Below are positions 44,829-58,004 of a stretch of DNA of 64,000 nucleotides, one piece after another. The translations under genes were made by a program, and so were the position numbers. How positions within the stretch are numbered: position 1 is the first letter of the stretch; every line of letters begins with the position of its first letter. The notes beneath the pieces are model-generated. The model saw only the letters and a list, made by a program, of their open reading frames with translations. It did no database searches and was not told where the DNA came from. Location: NCBI RefSeq assembly GCF_016820445.1, contig NZ_JADHDT010000002.1, positions 434,001 through 498,000 on the forward strand. The letters run 5' to 3'. This stretch comes from Sphingomonas beigongshangi. Its GTDB lineage: Bacteria > Pseudomonadota > Alphaproteobacteria > Sphingomonadales > Sphingomonadaceae.

Positions 44829-45395
44829 ATGAGCTTGGAAAAGGGCACAAGGATGCGTGTGGCGGTGCGGCCCTACCGGCCGGACGATCGCGCGGCAGTG
44901 CTGGCTATCTTCGACGGCAACGCGGCGCACTATTTCGGCGCGGGCGATCGCGGCTGGCTCGCCGAGACGCTGGACGAGCCCGATGGTCCGGCGTTCGTCG
45001 TCACCGTGGGGGCGCAGGTCGCGGCCTTCGGCGGTTACGAGATCTGGGATCATTACAACAAGGCGCTGCTCTATTGGGGCATGGCGGACCGGCGCTATCA
45101 TGGCGCCGGCCTCGGCCGGTTGCTGCTGCTCGCGCGGCTGCTGCACGTCGCGGAGCATGCCGAACCGCCGACGCGCTATGTCACCGTCGATACCTCGCCG
45201 ATGGTGGCGCCGTTTTTCCTCGCCTGCGGATTCGAGCGGACGGCGATCTGGCCGGAAGGGTATCGGTCGGGCATGGAGATGCACGAGCTGCGCTTCGACC
45301 TCGCCGCGACGGACGTCGACCGGCTGCGCGCGGCGCTCGATGACGCGCATGCGCGCGCAGAGGCAGCGATCGGAGAAAATTCCCGCGCGTCGTAA
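44829..45395 (+). CDS. GNAT-family N-acetyltransferase
   Basis: The 188-aa protein has the GNAT fold. MRVAVRPYRPDDRAAVLAIF is strand 1/helix 1, AFVVTVGAQVAAFGGYEIWD is the central sheet, and YHGAGLGRLLLLARLLH is the acetyl-CoA motif A. VDTSPMVAPFFLACGFERTA is motif B. The first ATG (MSLEKGTRM) may be replaced by the internal ATG of MRVAVRP. The substrate cannot be predicted. It lies upstream of the aspartyl protease-like gene on the same strand, 83 bp apart. Confidence 0.85.
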   Translation: MSLEKGTRMRVAVRPYRPDDRAAVLAIFDGNAAHYFGAGDRGWLAETLDEPDGPAFVVTVGAQVAAFGGYEIWDHYNKALLYWGMADRRYHGAGLGRLLLLARLLHVAEHAEPPTRYVTVDTSPMVAPFFLACGFERTAIWPEGYRSGMEMHELRFDLAATDVDRLRAALDDAHARAEAAIGENSRAS

Positions 45396-45478
45396 GCGCA
45401 TTGTCAGCTTCCCGGGCTAGCGTCGCCTGCGCCGCGAACCGCGGCCGGCCCGGCCAGGGCCATCATGGGGGACGAGCG

Positions 45479-47251
45479 GTGGCGAAACGAACGGGCGGCG
45501 CGCGGGCGAAGGTGGTGGCGGCGGTCGCCAGCATCGTGGCGACGATCGCCGCACATCCCGCTGCGGCGGAAAACTGCAAGATCGGGAAGATCGCCGAACT
45601 GGCGGTGACGATGCAGGGCCTGCGACCGGTCGTCCAGACGACGATCAACGGAAAGCCCGCCCCCTTCATCGTCGACAGCGGCGCCTTCTTCAGCAACATC
45701 TCGCCGCCCGTCGCGAAGAGCCTGAGCCTGCCACAGCGCGCCTATCCCGGCCTGCGCGTCAACGGCATCGGCGGCAGCAGCGAGGCGAGCGTCGCGACCG
45801 TCCGCCACTTCGGGCTGGCCGGCGTGGACATCCCGAACGTCGAATTCGTCGTCAGCGGCAGCGACATCGGTCAGACCGGGCTGATCGGACAGAATGTGCT
45901 GGGTCTGGCCGACGTCGAATATGACCTGCCCGGCGGCGCGGTGCGCCTTTTCCGGCCGCAGGGCTGCAGCAAGACGGCGTTGGCCTATTGGTCGGCGGGC
46001 AAACCGTTCTTCATGCTGCCGATCGAGAGCAAGGAGGAAGCGCGCAACCACACCGTCGGCGCTATCGAACTGGATGGCGCGAAGCTGCGGGCGACGTTCG
46101 ATACCGGGGCGCCGCAGACGGTGTTGACCCTGCGCGCGGCTGCGCGAGCCGGGGTCCATCCGGGTGATCCGGGCGTCGAGAAGGCGGGCTGGGAATCGGG
46201 CCTCGGCAGCCGTGTCGTCCAGGGCTGGATCGGACATTTCAAGCTGCTCAAGATCGGCGACGAGGAATTGCACAACGTGCGGCTGCGCATGGCGGACCTC
46301 GGACCGCTCGACACCGACATGCTGCTCGGCGCCGACTATTTCGTGTCGCACCGTATCTATGTCTCCAACGCGCAGCACCGGATGTACTTCACCTATACCG
46401 GCGGCAGGTTGTTCAGCACGGGCACGCGTGTCGACGCGACGACGAACATCGCGGTGCAGGGTGGCGCGACCGAGGGGGCCGAACCGGCCGATGCCGAGGG
46501 GTATAGCCGCCGCGGCGCGATGGCGCAGACGCAACGCGACCTGCCCGGCGCGATCGAGGCCTATTCGCATGCCATGGCGCTTGCGCCGAAGGATCCTCGC
46601 TTCCCGCTGCAGCGGGCACTGGCCTATCTGGCAGCGCGGCGCCCGGTCCTCGCGATGGACGACCTCAACACCGTGCTGACGCTCGACCCGGCGGATCGGC
46701 GCGCGCGCCTGCTGCGCGCGGAGGTGCGGCTGCGTGCCGGCAACCCGGAAGGCGCGATCGCCGATCTCGACGCGCTGAGCGCCGCGATGCCGCGCGAGGA
46801 TATGGAGCGGCTGCACGTCGCGCAGCTTTATTCCGGCGCGGACGCGTTCGACGCCGCCATCGGCCAATATGACATATGGCTGGCGACGCACCACGACGAC
46901 AGCCAGCGCAGCGTCGCGCAGAACGGACGGTGCTGGGCGCGCGCGCTGGCCAACAAGGATCTCGACAAGGCGCGGGGCGACTGCGACGCGGCCGTGCGCG
47001 CGGTGAAGGGCAATGCGAGCTATCTCGACTCCCGCGGGCTCCTCGCGTTCCGACGCGGCGACGACGCGGCGGCGATCGCCGACCTCACCGCTGCACTGGC
47101 GCTCAATCCCAAACTCGCCTGGTCGCTGTACATCCGCTCCCTGGCCGAGCGGCGGCAGGGCCGGACGGCGGACGCCGATCGCGATCGCGATGCCGCGCTC
47201 GCACTCGATCGGCGCCTGGCGGACCGTGCGAAGCGCTATGGTCTGAGCTGA
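45479..47251 (+). CDS. secreted protein with two retropepsin-like domains and TPR repeats
   Basis: The 590-aa protein has a signal-like N-terminus (KVVAAVASIVATIAAHPAAA) and two aspartyl protease half-domains. The first has FIVDSGAFFSNI (D66, DSG instead of DTG), the second ATFDTGAPQTVL (D208). Late LLGADYFVSHRIYVS matches the Ile-Leu-Gly motif. From about residue 345 to the end there are five to six tetratricopeptide-like helix pairs (AIEAYSHAMALAPKDPRFPL, AIADLTAALALNPKLAWSLY). It may be a periplasmic protease or a catalytically weak binding protein. The start is a GTG preceded by GGGGGACGA. It converges on the carboxylesterase gene, with 4 bp between them. Confidence 0.8.
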   Translation: MAKRTGGARAKVVAAVASIVATIAAHPAAAENCKIGKIAELAVTMQGLRPVVQTTINGKPAPFIVDSGAFFSNISPPVAKSLSLPQRAYPGLRVNGIGGSSEASVATVRHFGLAGVDIPNVEFVVSGSDIGQTGLIGQNVLGLADVEYDLPGGAVRLFRPQGCSKTALAYWSAGKPFFMLPIESKEEARNHTVGAIELDGAKLRATFDTGAPQTVLTLRAAARAGVHPGDPGVEKAGWESGLGSRVVQGWIGHFKLLKIGDEELHNVRLRMADLGPLDTDMLLGADYFVSHRIYVSNAQHRMYFTYTGGRLFSTGTRVDATTNIAVQGGATEGAEPADAEGYSRRGAMAQTQRDLPGAIEAYSHAMALAPKDPRFPLQRALAYLAARRPVLAMDDLNTVLTLDPADRRARLLRAEVRLRAGNPEGAIADLDALSAAMPREDMERLHVAQLYSGADAFDAAIGQYDIWLATHHDDSQRSVAQNGRCWARALANKDLDKARGDCDAAVRAVKGNASYLDSRGLLAFRRGDDAAAIADLTAALALNPKLAWSLYIRSLAERRQGRTADADRDRDAALALDRRLADRAKRYGLS

Positions 47252-49130: not shown

Positions 49131-52100
49131 ATGAGTGACAGGTTCGAGGATGCGCCGGCGCCCGTGATCAACACCGATCATCCGACCGTGTTCGCGCCGA
49201 TCGCGCCGCTCGCCGCGTTGCGCGAGGAGGAGCCTTATGCGCGCGACGAGCTTCTGCAGGAGCTTTTCGAGGCGGCCGTCCGGCGGTTCGCACGCAACTG
49301 CGCGACGCGGATGCTCGTCGACGATCCCGAGAGCGAGCGGCGGACGGCGCTCAGCTATGTCGAGTTGCGCGACCGGGCGGTGCGCTTCGCACGACAGCTG
49401 CGTGCCCTCGGCGTCGGCCGTGGCGACCGCGTGGTCATCTGCCTGCCGCGCGGGCTCGACCAGTATATGGCGATCCTGGGTACGCTATGGGCGGGCGCCT
49501 GTTACGTTCCCGTCGACTGGACCTATCCGCAGGATCGCATCGATTTCATCGCCGAGGACAGCGACGCCGCGCTGATCGTCACGGACAGCGACCGGGCAGG
49601 CGCGATGCCGCGGCGAACGCTCGTCGTCGACGAGACGCTAGGCGATCTCGCCGCGCTCGACGCGACGCCGCTGACGCGCGCCGACACCGGCGCGGAGCCC
49701 GGCGACCTCGCCTATATCATCTACACCTCCGGCACGACGGGCCGGCCGAAGGGCGTGATGATCACCCAGGCCAATGCCTGCCACCTGGTACGGTCCGAAA
49801 GTGCGATCCTGGCGCTGGAGGAAAGCGACAAGGTTTTCGGCGGCTTCAGCCTGGCGTTCGACATGTCGGTGGAGACGATGTGGAGCGCCTTCTTCGTCGG
49901 TGCCGAACTGCTCGTCGCGGACGAGGCGCTCGCCAAGGCGGGGCCCGACATGGCGGAGGTGCTGGCGCGCGAGGGCGTGACGATCTGGCACGTCGTGCCG
50001 TCGCTGCTGACGCTGGTCGAGACGCCGATGCCCTCGCTGCGCCTGCTCAACCTCGGGGGCGAGGCCTGTCCGCCCGACCTCGTCGATCGCTGGTCGCGGC
50101 CGGGCCTGCGGATGCTCAACACCTATGGGCCGACCGAAACGACGGTGACGGCGACCTGGACCGAGGTGCAACCGGGGCGCCGCGTCACCATCGGCCGGCC
50201 GCTGCCCGGCTATACCGCGTGGATCGTCGACGAAAAGCTGTGGCCGGTCGACGCGGGGACGGAGGGCGAACTGGTCATCGGCGGCCCCGGCGTCGGCGCG
50301 GGCTACGTCAACCGGCCCGACCTCACCGCCGACAAGTTCGTGACGACGCCCTTCGCCGGACCCGACGGCAAGTCCGCGCTGGTCTATCGTTCGGGCGACC
50401 TCGTGCGGCTGGATGCCGTCGGCGACATCGACTTCATCGGCCGCATCGACACGCAGGTGAAGATCCGCGGGTTCCGCGTCGAGCTGGGCGAGATCGAGGC
50501 GGTGATCGCCGACGATCCCGCCGTGGCGCAGGCGGTCGTGCATCTGTTCAAGGACGAGGACGGCGCGGAATTCCTGGCCGCCTTCCTCGTCGCGCGTGGC
50601 GACGCGACGATCGACATGGACGCGGTCCGCGCCCGCGTGCGCGACCGGCTGCCCGTCTACATGCGCCCCGCTGCCTATCAGCGCCTCGATGCGCTGCCGA
50701 CGCTGCCCGCCTCGGGCAAGGTGGATCGCAAGGCGCTGGTGCGCCCGGTCGTCGTCGCCGACGAGACGCGCGAGGCCGTCGCGCCCGCGACGCCGCTGGA
50801 GGAGACGCTCCAGGCGATCTGGGCGGAGGCCTTCGCGCCGCAGAAGGTCGGCGTGACCGACGATCTGTTCGAGGATCTGGGCGGCCATTCACTCAAGGCA
50901 GCGCGGCTCGTCTCCGCGATCCGCAAGGCACCCGGACTTGCCGGCGTGTCCATCCAGGACCTGTACGCGGCCCCGACGATCCGCGCGCTCGCCGCGCGGC
51001 TGGACGGTAACGGCCTGGCCGCCGCCGCCCCCGAGGAACCGTTCCACCGCATCGCCGATGCGAAGCGGTGGCTCTGCTACGCCGCGCAGACGCTGCTGCT
51101 GCTGCCCATTTATGCGGTGGCCGGATTGCAGTGGTTCTTCCCCTATATCGCCTATACGCGCCTCGCCGATCAGGTCGACCGCGTGCCGGCACTGCTGCTC
51201 AGCGGCTTCAGCTTCGTCTTCATCCCCCCGCTGGCGATGCTCGCCTCCATCCTGATCAAATGGCTGGTGATCGGCCGCTTCCGCGCGGGCGACTATCCGC
51301 TGTGGGGCAGCTATTACCTGCGCTGGTGGTTCGTGCGCCGCTTCTCGGAGGTGATCGCGACGCCCTATCTTGCGGGTACGCCGATGATCCGCGCCTATTA
51401 CCGGCTGCTGGGCGCGAAGGTGGGCAAGGATGCGTTCATCGGCCGCGGCAACATCGACGCGGCCGATCTGGTGACGATCGGCGAGGGCGCGATCGTCAGC
51501 GACTATGCGATGCTCGCCACGACCTCCGTCGAGCGGGGGCTGCTCCGCCTCGGCACCGCGCGCATCGGCGATCGTGCGTTCGTGGGATCGATGGCCGTGG
51601 TCGGACGCGACTGCGCGATCGGTGCGGGAGCCCAGCTGGAGGATCTGTCCGCGCTGCCGGTAGGGACGCAGGTGCCGGCGGGCGAGTGCTGGAGCGGTTC
51701 GCCCGCGACCTCGCACGGGATGGTCGCCACGCAGGCGGCGCCGCCGGCCAGCGGTACGCGCCGCCTCGCCGTCGGCCTCGCGCTCGCGCTGGGCGCCTTG
51801 CTGCTGCCGCTGGTCGCGATCCTCCCGATCGCGCCGGGCCTCGTCACGCTCATCGAGCTCGACTGGCGCAGCGAGAGCTACACCTATTTGCTGCTCGCAC
51901 CCGCGCTTGCCATCACCTACGTCATCCTGATGTGCGTGCTGACGGTGGCGGCGAAACGGCTGTTCCTCGGACGGGTGCGGCCGGGTCGCTACCCCATCCA
52001 CAGCTGGTTCTACGTGCGCTTCTGGTTCGTGCAGCAGGTCAACGACCTGGCGCTGCGCCTGCTGCATCCGATCTATGCGACGCTCTATGTCGTGCCCTGG

Positions 52101-53162
52101 TATCGCGCGCTGGGCGTGAAGGTCGGCAAGCGCGCCGAGATATCGACCGCGGCGGCGATCGTCCCGGATCTCGTCGACATCGGCGCGGAAAGCTTCATCG
52201 CGGATGCGGTGCTGTTCGGGGCGGCGCGCGTCGAGCCCGGCGCGATCCGGCTTGCCCATACCCGCATCGGTCGACGCAGCTTCATCGGCAATTCCGCGTT
52301 GCTGCCGACGGGGGCCAGTGTCGGCGACGGCGTGCTGATCGGCGTGCTCTCCAAACCTCCCGCGGACGGCGGCGCCGAGAAGCCGGACGGCACCTGGTTC
52401 GGCTCGCCGCCGATCTCGCTGCCGGTCCGGCAGACGGTCGGGCTGTTCGACGAAGGCGCGCGCTTCAATCCGGGGCGCCGGCTGGTCGCGACGCGCCTCG
52501 GCATCGAATATGTCCGCGTCACCCTGTCGCTGACGCTGTTCCTCGCCTTCTTCAGCCTGTTGCTGTCGGCGGTCGGGACGATCGACGACCTGGGCAACGG
52601 CGCCTGGCTGGTGCCGCTGACCTTTCCGTTCCTCTACATCGGCTTCGCGCTGGCGTGCGGCCTGTCCGTGGTGCTGCTCAAGTGGCTGGTGGTCGGCCGC
52701 TATCGCCAGACGACCGCGCCCCTGTGGAGCACCTTCGTGTGGCGGACGGAGCTGGTCACCGCGACCTACGAGAATCTTGCCGTGCCGAACCTGCTGGAGC
52801 CGTTGCGCGGCACACCGTGGCTGCCCGCCTATCTGCGACTGCTGGGATGCCGGATCGGCAAGCGCTGCTACATGGACACTACCGACGTCACCGAACACGA
52901 TCTGGTCGATATCGGCGACGATGTCGCGCTCAACGATTTCGCCGGGTTGCAGACGCACCTGTTCGAGGATCGCGTGATGAAGGTGAGCGGGGTCAGCGTG
53001 CGCGACCGGGCGACGATCGGGTCCTATGCGATCGTCCTCTACGATGCCGAGATCGGCGAAGACGCGCAGCTCGGCGATCTGTCGGTGGTGATGAAGGGAG
53101 AGACGTTGCCGCCGGGCACGTCGTGGGAGGGTTCGCCCGCACGACTCGTCCGCAACGGATGA
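49131..53162 (+). CDS. Pls/PosA-type single-module NRPS with three membrane-beta-helix units
   Basis: The 1343-aa protein starts with an adenylation domain (about 40-560: YIIYTSGTTGRPKGV near 195, NTYGPTETTVTATW, YRSGDLVRLDAVGDIDFIGR, LPASGKVDRKAL). A carrier domain follows with LFEDLGGHSLKAARL (phosphopantetheine Ser at S587). There is no condensation or thioesterase domain. The rest holds three similar units of membrane helices plus left-handed beta-helix repeats (about 645-860, 880-1100, 1120-1343; for example GAKVGKDAFIGRG, GVKVGKRAEISTAA, GCRIGKRCYMDTTD). This is the architecture of epsilon-poly-L-lysine synthetase Pls, which polymerises one amino acid on the membrane. Substrate-pocket residues read by hand include D-M-E at the first three positions, which fits a basic amino acid. 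The PPTase gene is coupled by a 4-bp overlap. Confidence 0.85.
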   Translation: MSDRFEDAPAPVINTDHPTVFAPIAPLAALREEEPYARDELLQELFEAAVRRFARNCATRMLVDDPESERRTALSYVELRDRAVRFARQLRALGVGRGDRVVICLPRGLDQYMAILGTLWAGACYVPVDWTYPQDRIDFIAEDSDAALIVTDSDRAGAMPRRTLVVDETLGDLAALDATPLTRADTGAEPGDLAYIIYTSGTTGRPKGVMITQANACHLVRSESAILALEESDKVFGGFSLAFDMSVETMWSAFFVGAELLVADEALAKAGPDMAEVLAREGVTIWHVVPSLLTLVETPMPSLRLLNLGGEACPPDLVDRWSRPGLRMLNTYGPTETTVTATWTEVQPGRRVTIGRPLPGYTAWIVDEKLWPVDAGTEGELVIGGPGVGAGYVNRPDLTADKFVTTPFAGPDGKSALVYRSGDLVRLDAVGDIDFIGRIDTQVKIRGFRVELGEIEAVIADDPAVAQAVVHLFKDEDGAEFLAAFLVARGDATIDMDAVRARVRDRLPVYMRPAAYQRLDALPTLPASGKVDRKALVRPVVVADETREAVAPATPLEETLQAIWAEAFAPQKVGVTDDLFEDLGGHSLKAARLVSAIRKAPGLAGVSIQDLYAAPTIRALAARLDGNGLAAAAPEEPFHRIADAKRWLCYAAQTLLLLPIYAVAGLQWFFPYIAYTRLADQVDRVPALLLSGFSFVFIPPLAMLASILIKWLVIGRFRAGDYPLWGSYYLRWWFVRRFSEVIATPYLAGTPMIRAYYRLLGAKVGKDAFIGRGNIDAADLVTIGEGAIVSDYAMLATTSVERGLLRLGTARIGDRAFVGSMAVVGRDCAIGAGAQLEDLSALPVGTQVPAGECWSGSPATSHGMVATQAAPPASGTRRLAVGLALALGALLLPLVAILPIAPGLVTLIELDWRSESYTYLLLAPALAITYVILMCVLTVAAKRLFLGRVRPGRYPIHSWFYVRFWFVQQVNDLALRLLHPIYATLYVVPWYRALGVKVGKRAEISTAAAIVPDLVDIGAESFIADAVLFGAARVEPGAIRLAHTRIGRRSFIGNSALLPTGASVGDGVLIGVLSKPPADGGAEKPDGTWFGSPPISLPVRQTVGLFDEGARFNPGRRLVATRLGIEYVRVTLSLTLFLAFFSLLLSAVGTIDDLGNGAWLVPLTFPFLYIGFALACGLSVVLLKWLVVGRYRQTTAPLWSTFVWRTELVTATYENLAVPNLLEPLRGTPWLPAYLRLLGCRIGKRCYMDTTDVTEHDLVDIGDDVALNDFAGLQTHLFEDRVMKVSGVSVRDRATIGSYAIVLYDAEIGEDAQLGDLSVVMKGETLPPGTSWEGSPARLVRNG

Positions 53163-53791
53163 CGGAGCCCGCCTGGGCGACCGGGCCGCTCGCGGCGATC
53201 CCGGCGGGGCACGGGCCGGTGGCGTGGTTGCTGCGGCTGGACGACGCGCAAACGGCGGCGGACGCCAGGCGCGCGGCCGTGTCGGCGCAGGATCTCGCCG
53301 ACCTGGCGGACCGGCCGCAGGCGGCGATGCGTGCGCTCCGGCGGCGGCTGGCCAAGGCGCTGATCGCACGGATGGCCGGGGTACACCCGGATCTGGTGCG
53401 CATCGCGCGGAACGAGGCCGGCGCGCCGATCGTCATCGCACCCGACGGCTGGCATGTCAGCGTCGCCGGCCGCTGGCCGCTCGCGCTGATCGGGGTGGCG
53501 CGGATCGGGATCGGCGTCGACGTCGAACCGCTGGATGCGCCGCCCCCGCCGCCCGATGCCTTCACCATCGCCGAACGGGTGGCGATGCGCGAAGATCAGG
53601 CGCTTGCCCGCTGGGTGACGAAGGAGGCGCACGCCAAGCGCCTCGGCATCGCGTCGCGCATCGCGGCGGAGGCGATCGAGACACGCGCGCTCGGCGGCTT
53701 GGCCTTCGCGGCCGCCTCGGCGGAAGGCGGCAGCCTGGCCTGGTGTACCGTTCGCGGCGGCGCGATCGCGGCCGCCGCGATACCGGTCTGA
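53159..53791 (+). CDS. 4'-phosphopantetheinyl transferase (Sfp type)
   Basis: The 210-aa protein has the two PPTase signatures. RIGIGVDVEPL (about 115-125) supplies the Mg2+-binding Asp/Glu, and LARWVTKEAHAKRLG (about 148-162) is the WxxKEAxxK motif. An upstream helix with RRRLAKALIARMAG and RNEAGAPIV (the RNExGxP-type strand) also fits. It transfers phosphopantetheine from CoA to carrier proteins. It overlaps the NRPS gene by 4 bp (ATGA), so the natural substrate is very likely S587 of that enzyme. Its end is 4 bp from the convergent putA stop. Confidence 0.9.
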   Translation: MTEPAWATGPLAAIPAGHGPVAWLLRLDDAQTAADARRAAVSAQDLADLADRPQAAMRALRRRLAKALIARMAGVHPDLVRIARNEAGAPIVIAPDGWHVSVAGRWPLALIGVARIGIGVDVEPLDAPPPPPDAFTIAERVAMREDQALARWVTKEAHAKRLGIASRIAAEAIETRALGGLAFAAASAEGGSLAWCTVRGGAIAAAAIPV

Positions 53792-53795
53792 ACGA

Positions 53796-56700
53796 TCAGC
53801 TGGTCGGCAGGACCATCAGGCTGGCGTTGCCGCCCGCCGCGGTGGTGTTGATCGACGTCGACACCTCCTCGACCAGCCAGTCGAGGCGATAGCCCGCGCC
53901 GGACGCCTGCGGCAGCACGATCGGCCCGGGAAGCTCCGCCAGTGCCGCCAGCGCCTCGGCGACGGTGGCGGCGTCGCCCTCGATCAGCGCGCCGGCATAG
54001 GCGCTTTCGCGCCGCCAGTCGCGCGACCAGCGCAGCCGGTGGGCGACGCTGTCGGGCAACGGCTGCAGCGCCGAGCGCAGGTCGTCTTCGGCGACGACCA
54101 CCGGGTCGTTGCCGCCCGCCAGGGCCGCGCCGAGCTGCTCGACCAGACCCGCGCGGGTCTGGGGCATCAGCAGCACCCGGCCGCGCGGATGCAGCGCATA
54201 GACGTTGGTCTCGCCCACGGGTCCTTCCAGCTCCGTCTGGGCCCCGAGCAGCGACGCGGCGATTGCGTCGCGGACCTGCCGTGCGCCCGCGACATCGCCG
54301 CGCTCCTCCAGCCACACGGCGAAGTCGCGCGCCGCGGGATCGGCATGGTCGCTCGCGATGGGCGGCGGCAGCGGCGCTCCCGCGACCAGGCGGCCCAGGT
54401 AGAGCGGTCCACCCGCCTTCGGTCCCGTGCCGGACAATCCGCGTCCGCCGAACGGCTGCACGCCGACCACCGCGCCGATCACGTTGCGGTTGATGTAGAG
54501 ATTGCCTGCCTTCACCCGGCTGGTGACGTGCGCGATCGTTTCGTCGAGGCGCGTGTGCAGGCCAAAGGTGAGGCCGTAGCCCGTCGCGTTGATCCGATCG
54601 ATCAGCCGGTCGAGCTCGGCACGGCGGAAGCGGACGACGTGGAGCACCGGCCCGAAGACCTCGCGCTTCAACTCGCCGATGTCGCCAAGCTCGATGATCG
54701 TCGGCGCGACGAACGTGCCGTGCGCGGTGTCGCCGGCGAGCGGGAGCTGCTCGACGTGGTGGCCGGATGCGCGCATCGCGGCGATATGCGCCTCGATGTT
54801 CGTCTGCGCCTCGGCGGTGATGACGGGGCCGATGTCGGTCTTCAGCGCGTCGGTGCGGCCGATCGACAGCTCGTGCAGCGCGCCCTTGACCATCGCCAGC
54901 GTCCGGTCGGCGACCTCTTCCTGCAGGCACAGCACGCGCAACGCCGAGCAGCGCTGGCCGGCGCTGTCGAAGGCAGAGGCGATGACGTCCGCCACCACCT
55001 GCTCGGCGAGCGCGGAGGAATCGACGATCATCGCATTCTGGCCGCCGGTCTCCGCGATCAGCGGGATCGGCGTGCCGGCGGGCGACAGGCGCCTGGCGAG
55101 CTCCTTCTGGATCAGGCGCGCGACTTCGGTGGAGCCGGTGAACATCACCGCCATGGTTTCGGGCGCCGCGACCAGCGCCGCGCCGATCGAACCATCGCCG
55201 GGCACGAACTGCAGCACGTCGATCGGTACCCCCGCCTGGTGCAGCAGGTCGATGCCCTGCGCGGCGATCAGCGGCGTCTCCTCCGCCGGCTTGGCGAGAA
55301 CGGCGTTGCCGGCGACCAGCGCCGCGGCGACCTGGCCGATGAAGATCGCGAGCGGGAAATTCCACGGGCTGATGCAGGTGACGACACCAAGCGGCATATG
55401 GCCCGCGCCCAATGTGGTCCGCGCCTGCTCGGCATAATAGCGCAGGAAATCGATCGCCTCGCGCACTTCCGCGATCGCGTTGGCCAGCGACTTGCCCGCC
55501 TCGCGCACGAGCAGCGCCAGCAGTTCAGGCATGCGCGCCTGCATCGCGTCTGCCGCGCGGTCGAGGATCGCGGCACGCGCGCTCGGTGCCGTCGCCGCCC
55601 AGCCCGGCGCGGCCGCTGCCGCGACGTGCGCGGCGGCGCGCGCCTGCTCGGGCGACAGTTCGCGGACCAGTCCGACGCGGTCGCGATGATCGGCGGGGTT
55701 GAGGACGTCGCGCGGCGTGCCGTCGACCCCCGCTTCCCAGGGACCGGCGGCGGCCATCGTCTCCGCCAGCATCGCCAGCGTGCGCTCGTCGCTGAGATCG
55801 AGCCCCGCGGAATTGACGCGCGTGCCGTAGAGATCGCGGGGCAGCGCGATATGCGGGTTCTTCTGGCCCGGCACCGCCATCGCGCGCACGCTTTCGACCG
55901 GATCGGCGACGAGGTCGGCGATCGGAACCTCGGGATCGGCGATGCGGTTGACGAACGAGGAATTGGCGCCGTTCTCGAGCAGGCGGCGGACGAGATAGGC
56001 GAGCAAGGTCTCGTGCGTGCCCACCGGCGCGTAGATGCGGCACGGCCGGTTCAGCTTCTCCGCGCCGACCACCTCGTCGTAAAGCGGTTCACCCATGCCG
56101 TGCAGGCACTGGAATTCGTAGTCGCCGACGGTGAAGTCGTCGCCCGCCAGGTGGTAGATGGTGGCCAGCGTCTGCGCATTGTGGGTCGCGAATTGCGGGA
56201 AGACCGCGTCCTTCGCCGCCAGCAACTTGCGAGCGCAGGCGACATAGGCGACATCGGTGTGGATCTTGCGGGTGTAGACCGGGAAGTCGGCAAGGCCGTC
56301 GACCTGCGCCCGCTTGATCTCCGCGTCCCAATAGGCGCCCTTGACCAGGCGGACCATGATGCGACGGTCGGAACGCCGCGCCAGGTCGACGATCCAGTCG
56401 ATGACGAACGGACAACGCTTGCCATAGGCCTGGACCACGAAGCCGAGCCCGTGCCAGTCCGCCAGATCGGGATCGGTCGCGAGGCTCTCCAGCAGGTCGA
56501 GCGACAGTTCGAGCCGATCCGCTTCCTCCGCATCGATGTTGAAGCCGATGTCGTAGCCCTTCGCCAGCACGGCCAGCGCCTTCACCCGCGGCAGCAGCTC
56601 GCCCATGACGCGATCCGCCTGCGCGCGGACGTAACGCGGATGGAGAGCGGACAATTTGATCGAGATGCCCGGGCCGGCATAGATGCCCCGACCCGCCGCA

Positions 56701-57413
56701 GCCTCGCCGATCGCCCGCACCGCATTCTCATAGTCGGCATAATAGCGATCCGCGTCCGCCGCGGTGGTGGCCGCTTCGCCGAGCATGTCGTAGCTGTACC
56801 GGAAACCCCGCGCCTCGAGCGGACGGGCCCGCTTCAGCGCCTCGGCGATCGTCTCGCCGGTGACGAACTGCTCGCCCATCATCCGCATCGCCATGTCGAC
56901 GCCGCGGCGGATCACCGGCTCGCCGGCGCGGGCGATCAGGCGGGTCAGTGCCGCGCCAAGGCCGCTGTCGTTGACGCTGCCGGTCAGCTTGCCGGTGACG
57001 ACCAGCCCCCAGGTCGCCGCGTTGACGAACAGCGATCGACCGTCGCCGACATGGCTTCGCCAGTCGCCGCCCGCGATCTTGTCGCGGATCAGTGCGTCGC
57101 GCGTCGCGGTGTCCGGGATGCGCAGCAGCGCTTCGGCGAGGCACATCAGCGCCACGCCCTCCTGGCTGGACAGGGCATATTCCTGGACCAGTCCCTCGAC
57201 GCCCGTGCCCTTGTGCTTGGCACGCAGCGCGGTGACGAGGCCGGTGGCGGTCGCCGTCGCGGCGTGCCGGATCGCGTCGGGCAGCGTCGCGGCGTCGAGC
57301 AGCGGCGCGAGGCATTCCGGTTCCGGCCGGCGATAGGCCGCGGTGATCGCGTCGCGCAGCGGCGTCGACGGACGGATGGCGGGCGCGAAAGCGGCGAAGG
57401 GCTGGGTCGTCAT
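53796..57413 (-). CDS. putA: bifunctional proline dehydrogenase / L-glutamate-gamma-semialdehyde dehydrogenase
   Basis: The 1205-aa protein lacks the N-terminal ribbon-helix-helix of enterobacterial PutA, so it is not a self-repressor. The PRODH barrel (about 110-480) includes GISIKLSALHPRY, FNIDAEEADRLELSLDLLES and RIMVRLVKGAYWDAEIKRAQ. The aldehyde dehydrogenase part (about 590-1000) has VTCISPWNFPLAIFIGQVAA, LIAETGGQNAMIVDSSA and the catalytic Cys in DSAGQRCSALRVL (C822). The last ~190 residues form the extra ALDH-superfamily-like C-terminal domain of longer PutAs. It converts proline to glutamate with FAD and NAD. It is divergent from the Lrp-type gene. Confidence 0.97.
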   Translation of the reverse strand: MTTQPFAAFAPAIRPSTPLRDAITAAYRRPEPECLAPLLDAATLPDAIRHAATATATGLVTALRAKHKGTGVEGLVQEYALSSQEGVALMCLAEALLRIPDTATRDALIRDKIAGGDWRSHVGDGRSLFVNAATWGLVVTGKLTGSVNDSGLGAALTRLIARAGEPVIRRGVDMAMRMMGEQFVTGETIAEALKRARPLEARGFRYSYDMLGEAATTAADADRYYADYENAVRAIGEAAAGRGIYAGPGISIKLSALHPRYVRAQADRVMGELLPRVKALAVLAKGYDIGFNIDAEEADRLELSLDLLESLATDPDLADWHGLGFVVQAYGKRCPFVIDWIVDLARRSDRRIMVRLVKGAYWDAEIKRAQVDGLADFPVYTRKIHTDVAYVACARKLLAAKDAVFPQFATHNAQTLATIYHLAGDDFTVGDYEFQCLHGMGEPLYDEVVGAEKLNRPCRIYAPVGTHETLLAYLVRRLLENGANSSFVNRIADPEVPIADLVADPVESVRAMAVPGQKNPHIALPRDLYGTRVNSAGLDLSDERTLAMLAETMAAAGPWEAGVDGTPRDVLNPADHRDRVGLVRELSPEQARAAAHVAAAAAPGWAATAPSARAAILDRAADAMQARMPELLALLVREAGKSLANAIAEVREAIDFLRYYAEQARTTLGAGHMPLGVVTCISPWNFPLAIFIGQVAAALVAGNAVLAKPAEETPLIAAQGIDLLHQAGVPIDVLQFVPGDGSIGAALVAAPETMAVMFTGSTEVARLIQKELARRLSPAGTPIPLIAETGGQNAMIVDSSALAEQVVADVIASAFDSAGQRCSALRVLCLQEEVADRTLAMVKGALHELSIGRTDALKTDIGPVITAEAQTNIEAHIAAMRASGHHVEQLPLAGDTAHGTFVAPTIIELGDIGELKREVFGPVLHVVRFRRAELDRLIDRINATGYGLTFGLHTRLDETIAHVTSRVKAGNLYINRNVIGAVVGVQPFGGRGLSGTGPKAGGPLYLGRLVAGAPLPPPIASDHADPAARDFAVWLEERGDVAGARQVRDAIAASLLGAQTELEGPVGETNVYALHPRGRVLLMPQTRAGLVEQLGAALAGGNDPVVVAEDDLRSALQPLPDSVAHRLRWSRDWRRESAYAGALIEGDAATVAEALAALAELPGPIVLPQASGAGYRLDWLVEEVSTSINTTAAGGNASLMVLPTS

Positions 57414-57518: not shown

Positions 57519-58004
57519 ATGGCAGGCAAAAATGATAGCGAATCAGCCCTGGACAGTCCTTTGGACTCGTTCGATCGGCGTATCATCGATGTCTTGCGTG
57601 ACGATGGCCGCATTTCCGTCACCGAGCTCGCGCAGCGCGTCGGGCTGTCGAAGACGCCATGCCAGGTCAGGATGCGGCGGCTGATCGCCCGCGGCTATAT
57701 CCTCGGCTTTCGCGCGGTGGTCGATCCGGCGCGGCTCGGCCTCGACCATATCGCCTTCACGGAGGTCAAGCTCTCCGACACGCGCGAGGCCGCGCTCGAC
57801 GAGTTCCGTCGCGCGGTGCTGCGCATTCCGGAGGTCGAGGAATGCCACATGATCGCGAGCAGCTTCGACTATCTGCTGAAGGTGCGCACCGCCGACATCC
57901 GGCGATATCGCGAGGTGCTGGGCGAACGCATCTCCGCGCTGCCGCATGTCGCGAACACATCGACCTTCGTGGCGATGGAGACGATCCGCGACGCCGCGGT
58001 ATAG
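57519..58004 (+). CDS. putR: Lrp/AsnC-family activator of proline catabolism
   Basis: The 161-aa protein has an N-terminal helix-turn-helix (LDSFDRRIIDVLRDDGRISV, TELAQRVGLSKTPCQVRMRR) and a C-terminal RAM ligand-binding domain (IAFTEVKLSDTREAALDEFR, EECHMIASSFDYLLKVRTAD). Divergence from putA with a 105-bp intergenic region is the classic putA-putR arrangement of alphaproteobacteria, where PutR activates putA in the presence of proline. The ribosome site GTGAGGGG precedes the ATG. Confidence 0.93.
   Translation: MAGKNDSESALDSPLDSFDRRIIDVLRDDGRISVTELAQRVGLSKTPCQVRMRRLIARGYILGFRAVVDPARLGLDHIAFTEVKLSDTREAALDEFRRAVLRIPEVEECHMIASSFDYLLKVRTADIRRYREVLGERISALPHVANTSTFVAMETIRDAAV

Follow-up and report, generated by a model that had tools for sequence, protein, structure and literature searches.

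The stretch of Sphingomonas beigongshangi DNA analysed here, which is 64,000 nucleotides long and is referred to below as the window, contains on its forward strand a pls/posA-type synthetase gene (pls, positions 49131-53162), a gene for an Sfp-type PPTase (53159-53791) which overlaps it by 4 bp, and a gene for a GNAT-family N-acetyltransferase (44829-45395), a probable third member of the system. According to the open-reading-frame analysis of the window, pls is a single open frame encoding a modular protein of 1343 amino acids. It is composed of an adenylation domain (residues about 70-540, positions 49338-50750, delimited by alignment to PosA 8G95-8G98), a carrier (PCP) domain (residues 559-624, positions 50805-51002, placed by PF00550 and alignment), and a terminal domain with three units of a helix pair and a beta-helix each. 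The Pfam scan assigned PF00501 (269.7 bits) and AMP-binding_C (40.2 bits) to the adenylation part, PF00550 (40.6 bits) to the carrier and hexapeptide repeats in addition, and found no condensation or thioesterase domain in the protein. Serine-587 within the sequence LGGHSL, picked by the usual carrier motif, is presumably the site of phosphopantetheine attachment.

Residues 652-1337 match TIGR02353, designated "Pls/PosA family non-ribosomal peptide synthetase", at 852.6 bits (cut-off 423.1), and profile positions 2-695 of 695 are covered; as the score is about twice the cut-off, the match to Pls/PosA is beyond chance. No second protein above this cut-off is present elsewhere in the genome. An earlier note, made from the letters of this DNA, had recognised adenylation and carrier domains without condensation or thioesterase domains and a Pls/PosA-family layout, and the Pfam scan and the profile search bear out both. 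The terminal units do not align with hexapeptide acyltransferases only, an outcome which that note had named as speaking against its reading: the match to TIGR02353 extends over the whole profile, and among solved structures the pocket region agrees best with PosA and Pls. A canonical NRPS was rejected, since the genome contains no Condensation domain (PF00668) anywhere. For an anti-phage function no PADLOC match was obtained at E 0.001 with pls, the PPTase or the GNAT gene, and scans for promoters (0 sites) and terminators (1 site) gave no excess over shuffled sequences.

Distribution and genomic setting

Two collections were used for comparison: 72 related loci, with flanks of at most about 6 kb as far as the contig permits, and 100 genomes, namely the own genome, 60 others of the genus and 39 from other genera of the order. 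Apart from the own genome, pls occurs in 7 of the 60 genus members and in none of the 39 genomes from other genera. Relatives with about 75% identity are found in Agrobacterium, Aureimonas and Caulobacter (some Caulobacter copies at 61-64%), and relatives are also carried on plasmids. Because of this patchy occurrence, the relatives in other genera and the plasmid location, pls is considered an accessory and probably mobile gene.

Other neighbours in the window are not conserved. The esterase, the aspartyl-protease/TPR gene, PutA and the SDF symporter were each considered as parts of the system and rejected, each being present in 0 of the 72 related loci; the divergent esterase had been singled out in the earlier note. 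The product of the frame at 45401-47251, the longest version of which begins 6 bases past the GNAT gene, has TPR repeats and two stretches that resemble retropepsin-type aspartyl proteases. The putA gene (53796-57413) runs towards the PPTase gene, its frame ending 4 bases past the end of the PPTase frame; it encodes a proline dehydrogenase joined to an aldehyde dehydrogenase and also matches a DNA-binding domain. Divergent from putA lies a gene for an Lrp/AsnC regulator (57519-58004).

The adenylation domain and its predicted substrate

The ten pocket residues of the window Pls (D244, M245, E248, H287, N307, G309, T331, V339, T340 and K530) read DMEHNGTVTK. The code published for PosA is DMEHNGTVSK (PMC10522769), and the Acinetobacter baumannii gene among our loci (L082) reads the same as the published one. 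Nine of the ten positions are therefore identical between PosA and the window protein, with threonine in place of serine at position 9. For PosA, PMC10522769 describes L-ornithine as a substrate, the abolition of activity upon loss of either the aspartate (position 1) or the glutamate (position 3), both of which are present in the window Pls as D244 and E248, a proposed role of the pocket methionine in setting substrate length, and a contact between the serine and the side-chain amine, the exchange S313A lowering efficiency 183-fold. The same source relates position 2 to the substrate, methionine being ornithine-type, alanine Lys-type and phenylalanine DAP/DAB-type. When the pocket region was compared with solved structures, PosA was the best match (188 bits), followed by Pls (126 bits); over the whole adenylation domain, the longer gramicidin-synthetase chains outscore both.

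The code of the window was read in 62 of 70 rows (the window and 69 of the 72 related loci), a count that leans towards this code because DMSVETMW, one of the six patterns used for fetching the loci, spans three pocket residues; of the 61 loci that share the code, 54 contain DMSVETMW and 39 contain that pattern alone. Judged from the pocket residues, L-ornithine is the likely substrate of the adenylation domain, and the identity with PosA at nine positions therefore leads to delta-poly-L-ornithine as the predicted product.

Other pocket codes and gene arrangements were seen in passing. Two Caulobacter loci (L068 and L071), in which a PPTase match beside pls is lacking, have the code DIECNGTVTK. 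On a Skermanella plasmid (L094), ectB, encoding diaminobutyrate transaminase, is located directly upstream of a pls gene with the code DFECLSVVTK, an arrangement fitting a poly-diaminobutyrate product. A Verrucomicrobiales frame of the Pls type (L072, 1749 amino acids, DGESISVVNK) runs into a DUF418 domain (PF04235, 137 bits), and a DUF418 gene is also found near pls on a Streptomyces plasmid (L092). Two Rhodospirillales loci have a gene for an amino-acid permease (PF13520) at the end of pls (L052:9812-11353 and L060:9806-11344), perhaps for uptake of the monomer. The record containing the Acinetobacter gene, NZ_CP104448, is labelled "plasmid" and is chromosome-like in size (4.09 Mb).

The terminal domain

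The terminal domain consists of unit 1 (residues 645-873, positions 51063-51749), unit 2 (residues 874-1104, positions 51750-52442) and unit 3 (residues 1112-1343, positions 52464-53159), the borders of which were derived from hhalign, the structural model and conservation. The earlier note's description of three related units of helices and beta-helix repeats holds: the units are homologous (hhalign probabilities 100, 100 and 99.85), and an AlphaFold2 model of residues 640-1343 (pLDDT 90.6, pTM 0.90) contains three units, each with a helix pair and a beta-strand part forming a beta-helix. The fold matches that of hexapeptide acyltransferases, and we infer that the six helices sit in the membrane.

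Conservation is distributed unequally among the three units. Q1274 and H1276 of unit 3, which belong to the motif QTHLFEDR (residues 1274-1281, positions 52950-52973), are invariant in all 81 rows of the alignment, and H1276 is the only invariant histidine of the whole protein; the resulting Q-x-H motif is likewise present in 120 of 120 close homologues among the matches listed. Where units 1 and 2 align with this motif, neither histidine nor glutamine occurs in any of the 81 rows; in the window protein the residues corresponding to H1276 are T798 and A1032. Unit 2 has an invariant aspartate and asparagine (D1025, N1054), the counterparts of which vary in units 1 and 3, and in unit 1 R731 and W733 are invariant. 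Several glycine and proline positions are common to all three units. Since the invariant histidine is confined to unit 3, the pattern speaks for a single composite active site rather than for three that act in succession; the earlier proposal that the tandem units act as successive ligation sites finds no support in a Q-x-H motif that only unit 3 has kept.

The overlapping PPTase gene

The ATG of the PPTase gene at position 53159 overlaps the stop codon of pls (ATGA), and the frame ends at 53791. The catalytic motifs of Sfp-type PPTases are D-x-E and W-x2-KEA-x2-K, and the window protein has GVDVE and WVTKEAHAK. In an alignment of 19 PPTase sequences, D121, E123, W152, E156, A157 and K160 are invariant and K155 is conserved in at least 90%. 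The pattern W-x2-KEA-x2-K is present in 54 of 57 PPTase frames and a stricter pattern around the aspartate in 23 of 57, many of the others having VDRE at this place. A profile of the 19 sequences matches Bacillus Sfp (1qr0) with an E-value of 3.8e-7; the single window sequence reaches 20.1 bits with PF01648, below the gathering cut-off of 25 that serves as detection threshold, and has no NCBIfam match. An Sfp-type PPTase gene overlapping pls, as the earlier note had read it, is supported.

A PPTase match lies directly 3' of pls in 56 of the 72 related loci, and of 54 loci inspected for overlap, 46 have a possible PPTase start codon that shares 4 bp with the end of pls; among the 16 loci lacking a match, L051 and L062 stop at a contig edge. 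In another of these 16, on a Phycisphaerales contig (L067:5344-10761), Pls and an Sfp-type PPTase are fused in one frame of 1806 amino acids, the PPTase part of which scores 62 bits with PF01648. Within the 100 genomes, the PPTase is present in exactly the eight that contain pls, the own genome included (Fisher p 5.4e-12, kinship being ignored). Apart from this PPTase, just one frame matching PF01648 was found in the own genome; it has 164 amino acids and is AcpS-like by its size. As the overlapping PPTase is tied to pls in eight of eight genomes and the other match looks AcpS-like, it can plausibly be regarded as the activator of the Pls carrier domain.

The GNAT acetyltransferase gene

The GNAT gene lies 3.7 kb upstream of pls, beyond the esterase and protease genes. 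Its product belongs to the GNAT superfamily by its fold and a Pfam match, and the fold similarity is generic: with the single sequence no PDB entry was matched at E 1, GNATs are reached only weakly by a 25-sequence profile (best E 0.0036), and no named NCBIfam family was matched at E 0.01.

The association with pls is seen twice, by co-occurrence in the 100 genomes and by adjacency in a separate pls clade. Strong matches, defined as at least 256 bits by a threshold that was placed at the observed gap (the next match has 79.5 bits), are found in seven of the eight pls genomes and in none of the 92 others (p 5.0e-10). In 33 of the 72 related loci, all belonging to the separate clade, an orthologue is located directly 3' of the PPTase gene, with a possible 4-bp overlap in 30 of these 33 pairs. 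The pls genome G049 lacks a strong match, and so do all 19 further pls genomes from the clade of the window and its neighbours, three of which have relatives at 32-38% identity; the GNAT is therefore not essential. Its gene tree disagrees with the pls tree: the GNAT of the window nests within the group that accompanies another pls clade, a position which would fit either a replacement of pls or a separate acquisition of the GNAT gene.

We consider that the GNAT gene probably belongs to the pls system. The earlier note had held that the two genes pls and PPTase alone could suffice and had seen no separate exporter or degrading enzyme gene nearby apart from the esterase. It missed the gene at 44829-45395, a neighbour of probable relevance, and the sufficiency of the two genes is not supported, the GNAT being statistically tied to pls, though absent from some pls genomes.

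Proposed function and alternative explanations

We propose, with a probability of roughly 0.7, that the locus encodes a Pls/PosA-family synthetase which activates L-ornithine and, with the aid of helper genes, forms short cationic delta-poly-L-ornithine, both substrate and product being predictions. The PPTase would provide the carrier domain with phosphopantetheine at its predicted target S587, and the adenylation domain would load ornithine onto this arm. The acceptor, either free ornithine or the growing chain, would be held non-covalently, as in the published model for Pls (PMC9205021), and its delta-amine would attack the loaded ornithine at a single composite site which the terminal domain forms around H1276 (unit 3), with D1025 and N1054 of unit 2 probably close by, a proximity that we infer. 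The helices would anchor the enzyme in the membrane and may hand the product on, and the GNAT may protect the producer or cap the chain by acetylating alpha-amines that are free on the product or the monomer.

A homopolymer synthetase of the same kind using another diamino acid, such as lysine or diaminobutyrate, or mixed diamino acids, is an unlikely alternative. PosA binds L-Lys and D-Orn in crystals, its exchange M218A increases the efficiency with Lys about tenfold (PMC10522769), and pocket position 9 of the window differs from PosA; against this, methionine at position 2 is ornithine-type by the same source, and the Lys-type (DAESIGTVIK/VVK) and DAP/DAB-type (DFE...) codes occur in separate loci of our collection. 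That the enzyme is not a polymer synthetase at all and transfers single ornithine residues to an acceptor in the membrane, for example a lipid or an amine of the envelope, with the GNAT acting elsewhere, appears very improbable. The terminal domain is predicted to be membrane-bound and has an acyltransferase fold, and a sphingomonad report of such a polymer is absent from the literature matches listed; yet the characterised members of the family, i.e. Pls, PosA and the poly-DAB, poly-DAP and poly-beta-lysine synthetases, form isopeptide oligomers or polymers according to PMC10522769, and architecture and pocket of the window protein are PosA-like.

Three equal ligation sites, with each terminal unit catalysing in turn, could be expected from the homology of the units and their common glycine and proline positions, and a published statement holds that Pls requires each of its three tandem domains (PMC4668381, citing Kito 2013), which is compatible with a composite site and equally with three sites. 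The restriction of Q-x-H to unit 3 (81 of 81 rows, against none for the corresponding positions in the other two units) and of the invariant Asp and Asn to unit 2 makes this mechanism quite unlikely. Somewhat less remote, and still improbable in our opinion, is that in the genome of the window the GNAT gene is an unrelated neighbour: its distance with protease and esterase genes in between, the discordant trees and the lack of strong matches in 19 of 19 further genomes fit such a view, whereas the confinement of strong matches to pls genomes and the 33 loci with directly adjoining genes, 30 with a possible overlap, speak against it.

The enzyme itself is of the already known Pls/PosA kind, since NCBI already names such proteins "Pls/PosA family" and a NAPAA type with a Pls/PosA-like domain is mentioned in a 2026 paper (PMC13291983); of interest are its helper genes and the proposal of a single site. 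A 2022 review describes the catalysis by Pls as poorly understood (PMC9205021). Among the literature matches listed there is none on an association of GNAT or PPTase with pls or on a single site, and none for TIGR02353. Taken together, we tentatively put forward, as a possibility less probable than its opposite, that sphingomonads and their kin share a mobile poly-ornithine module, in which a PosA-type synthetase is combined with an exclusive PPTase and an acetyltransferase that caps alpha-amines and shields the producer, and that the tandem domains of the whole Pls/PosA family form one pseudo-trimeric acyltransferase with a single site to which unit 3 contributes the Q-x-H motif and unit 2 its Asp and Asn. 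How an isopeptide chain of limited length is formed without a condensation domain is the question addressed, and with one invariant histidine in only one of three homologous units it can be tested by exchanging single residues. For the predicted alphaproteobacterial polymer, the partner genes for PPTase and GNAT provide a co-expression set, and the GNAT gene is a candidate for self-protection; PosA-type poly-ornithine is reported to be antifungal (PMC10522769).

Comparison with known systems

The closest characterised system is PosA, the delta-poly-L-ornithine synthetase of A. baumannii, with which the window Pls shares the domain order, the TIGR02353-type terminal domain (37% identity) and the Q-x-H motif (seen in L082). 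The two differ in the Ser/Thr exchange at pocket position 9 and in their setting: posA is a single-gene operon in the account of PMC10522769, whereas the window has an overlapping PPTase gene and a GNAT gene nearby. The poly-lysine synthetase Pls has the same domain order and belongs to the same family, its structure 7WEW being the second-best solved match in the pocket region; its pocket is of the Lys type with alanine at position 2 (PMC10522769), where the window has methionine, and its gene is followed with a 4-bp overlap by pldII for a degrading peptidase (PMC4361855), in contrast to the PPTase gene that follows in the window and the GNAT gene nearby. With the Sfp-type PPTases the window PPTase has the Asp-x-Glu and W-x2-KEA-x2-K motifs and the profile match to 1qr0 in common, and it is distinguished from them by being short, divergent, below the Pfam cut-off and tied to pls. 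The hexapeptide acyltransferases, such as maltose and galactoside O-acetyltransferases and serine acetyltransferase, resemble the terminal domain in fold; unlike them, the window protein combines three fused units with helix pairs, and only one of these units carries the conserved histidine.
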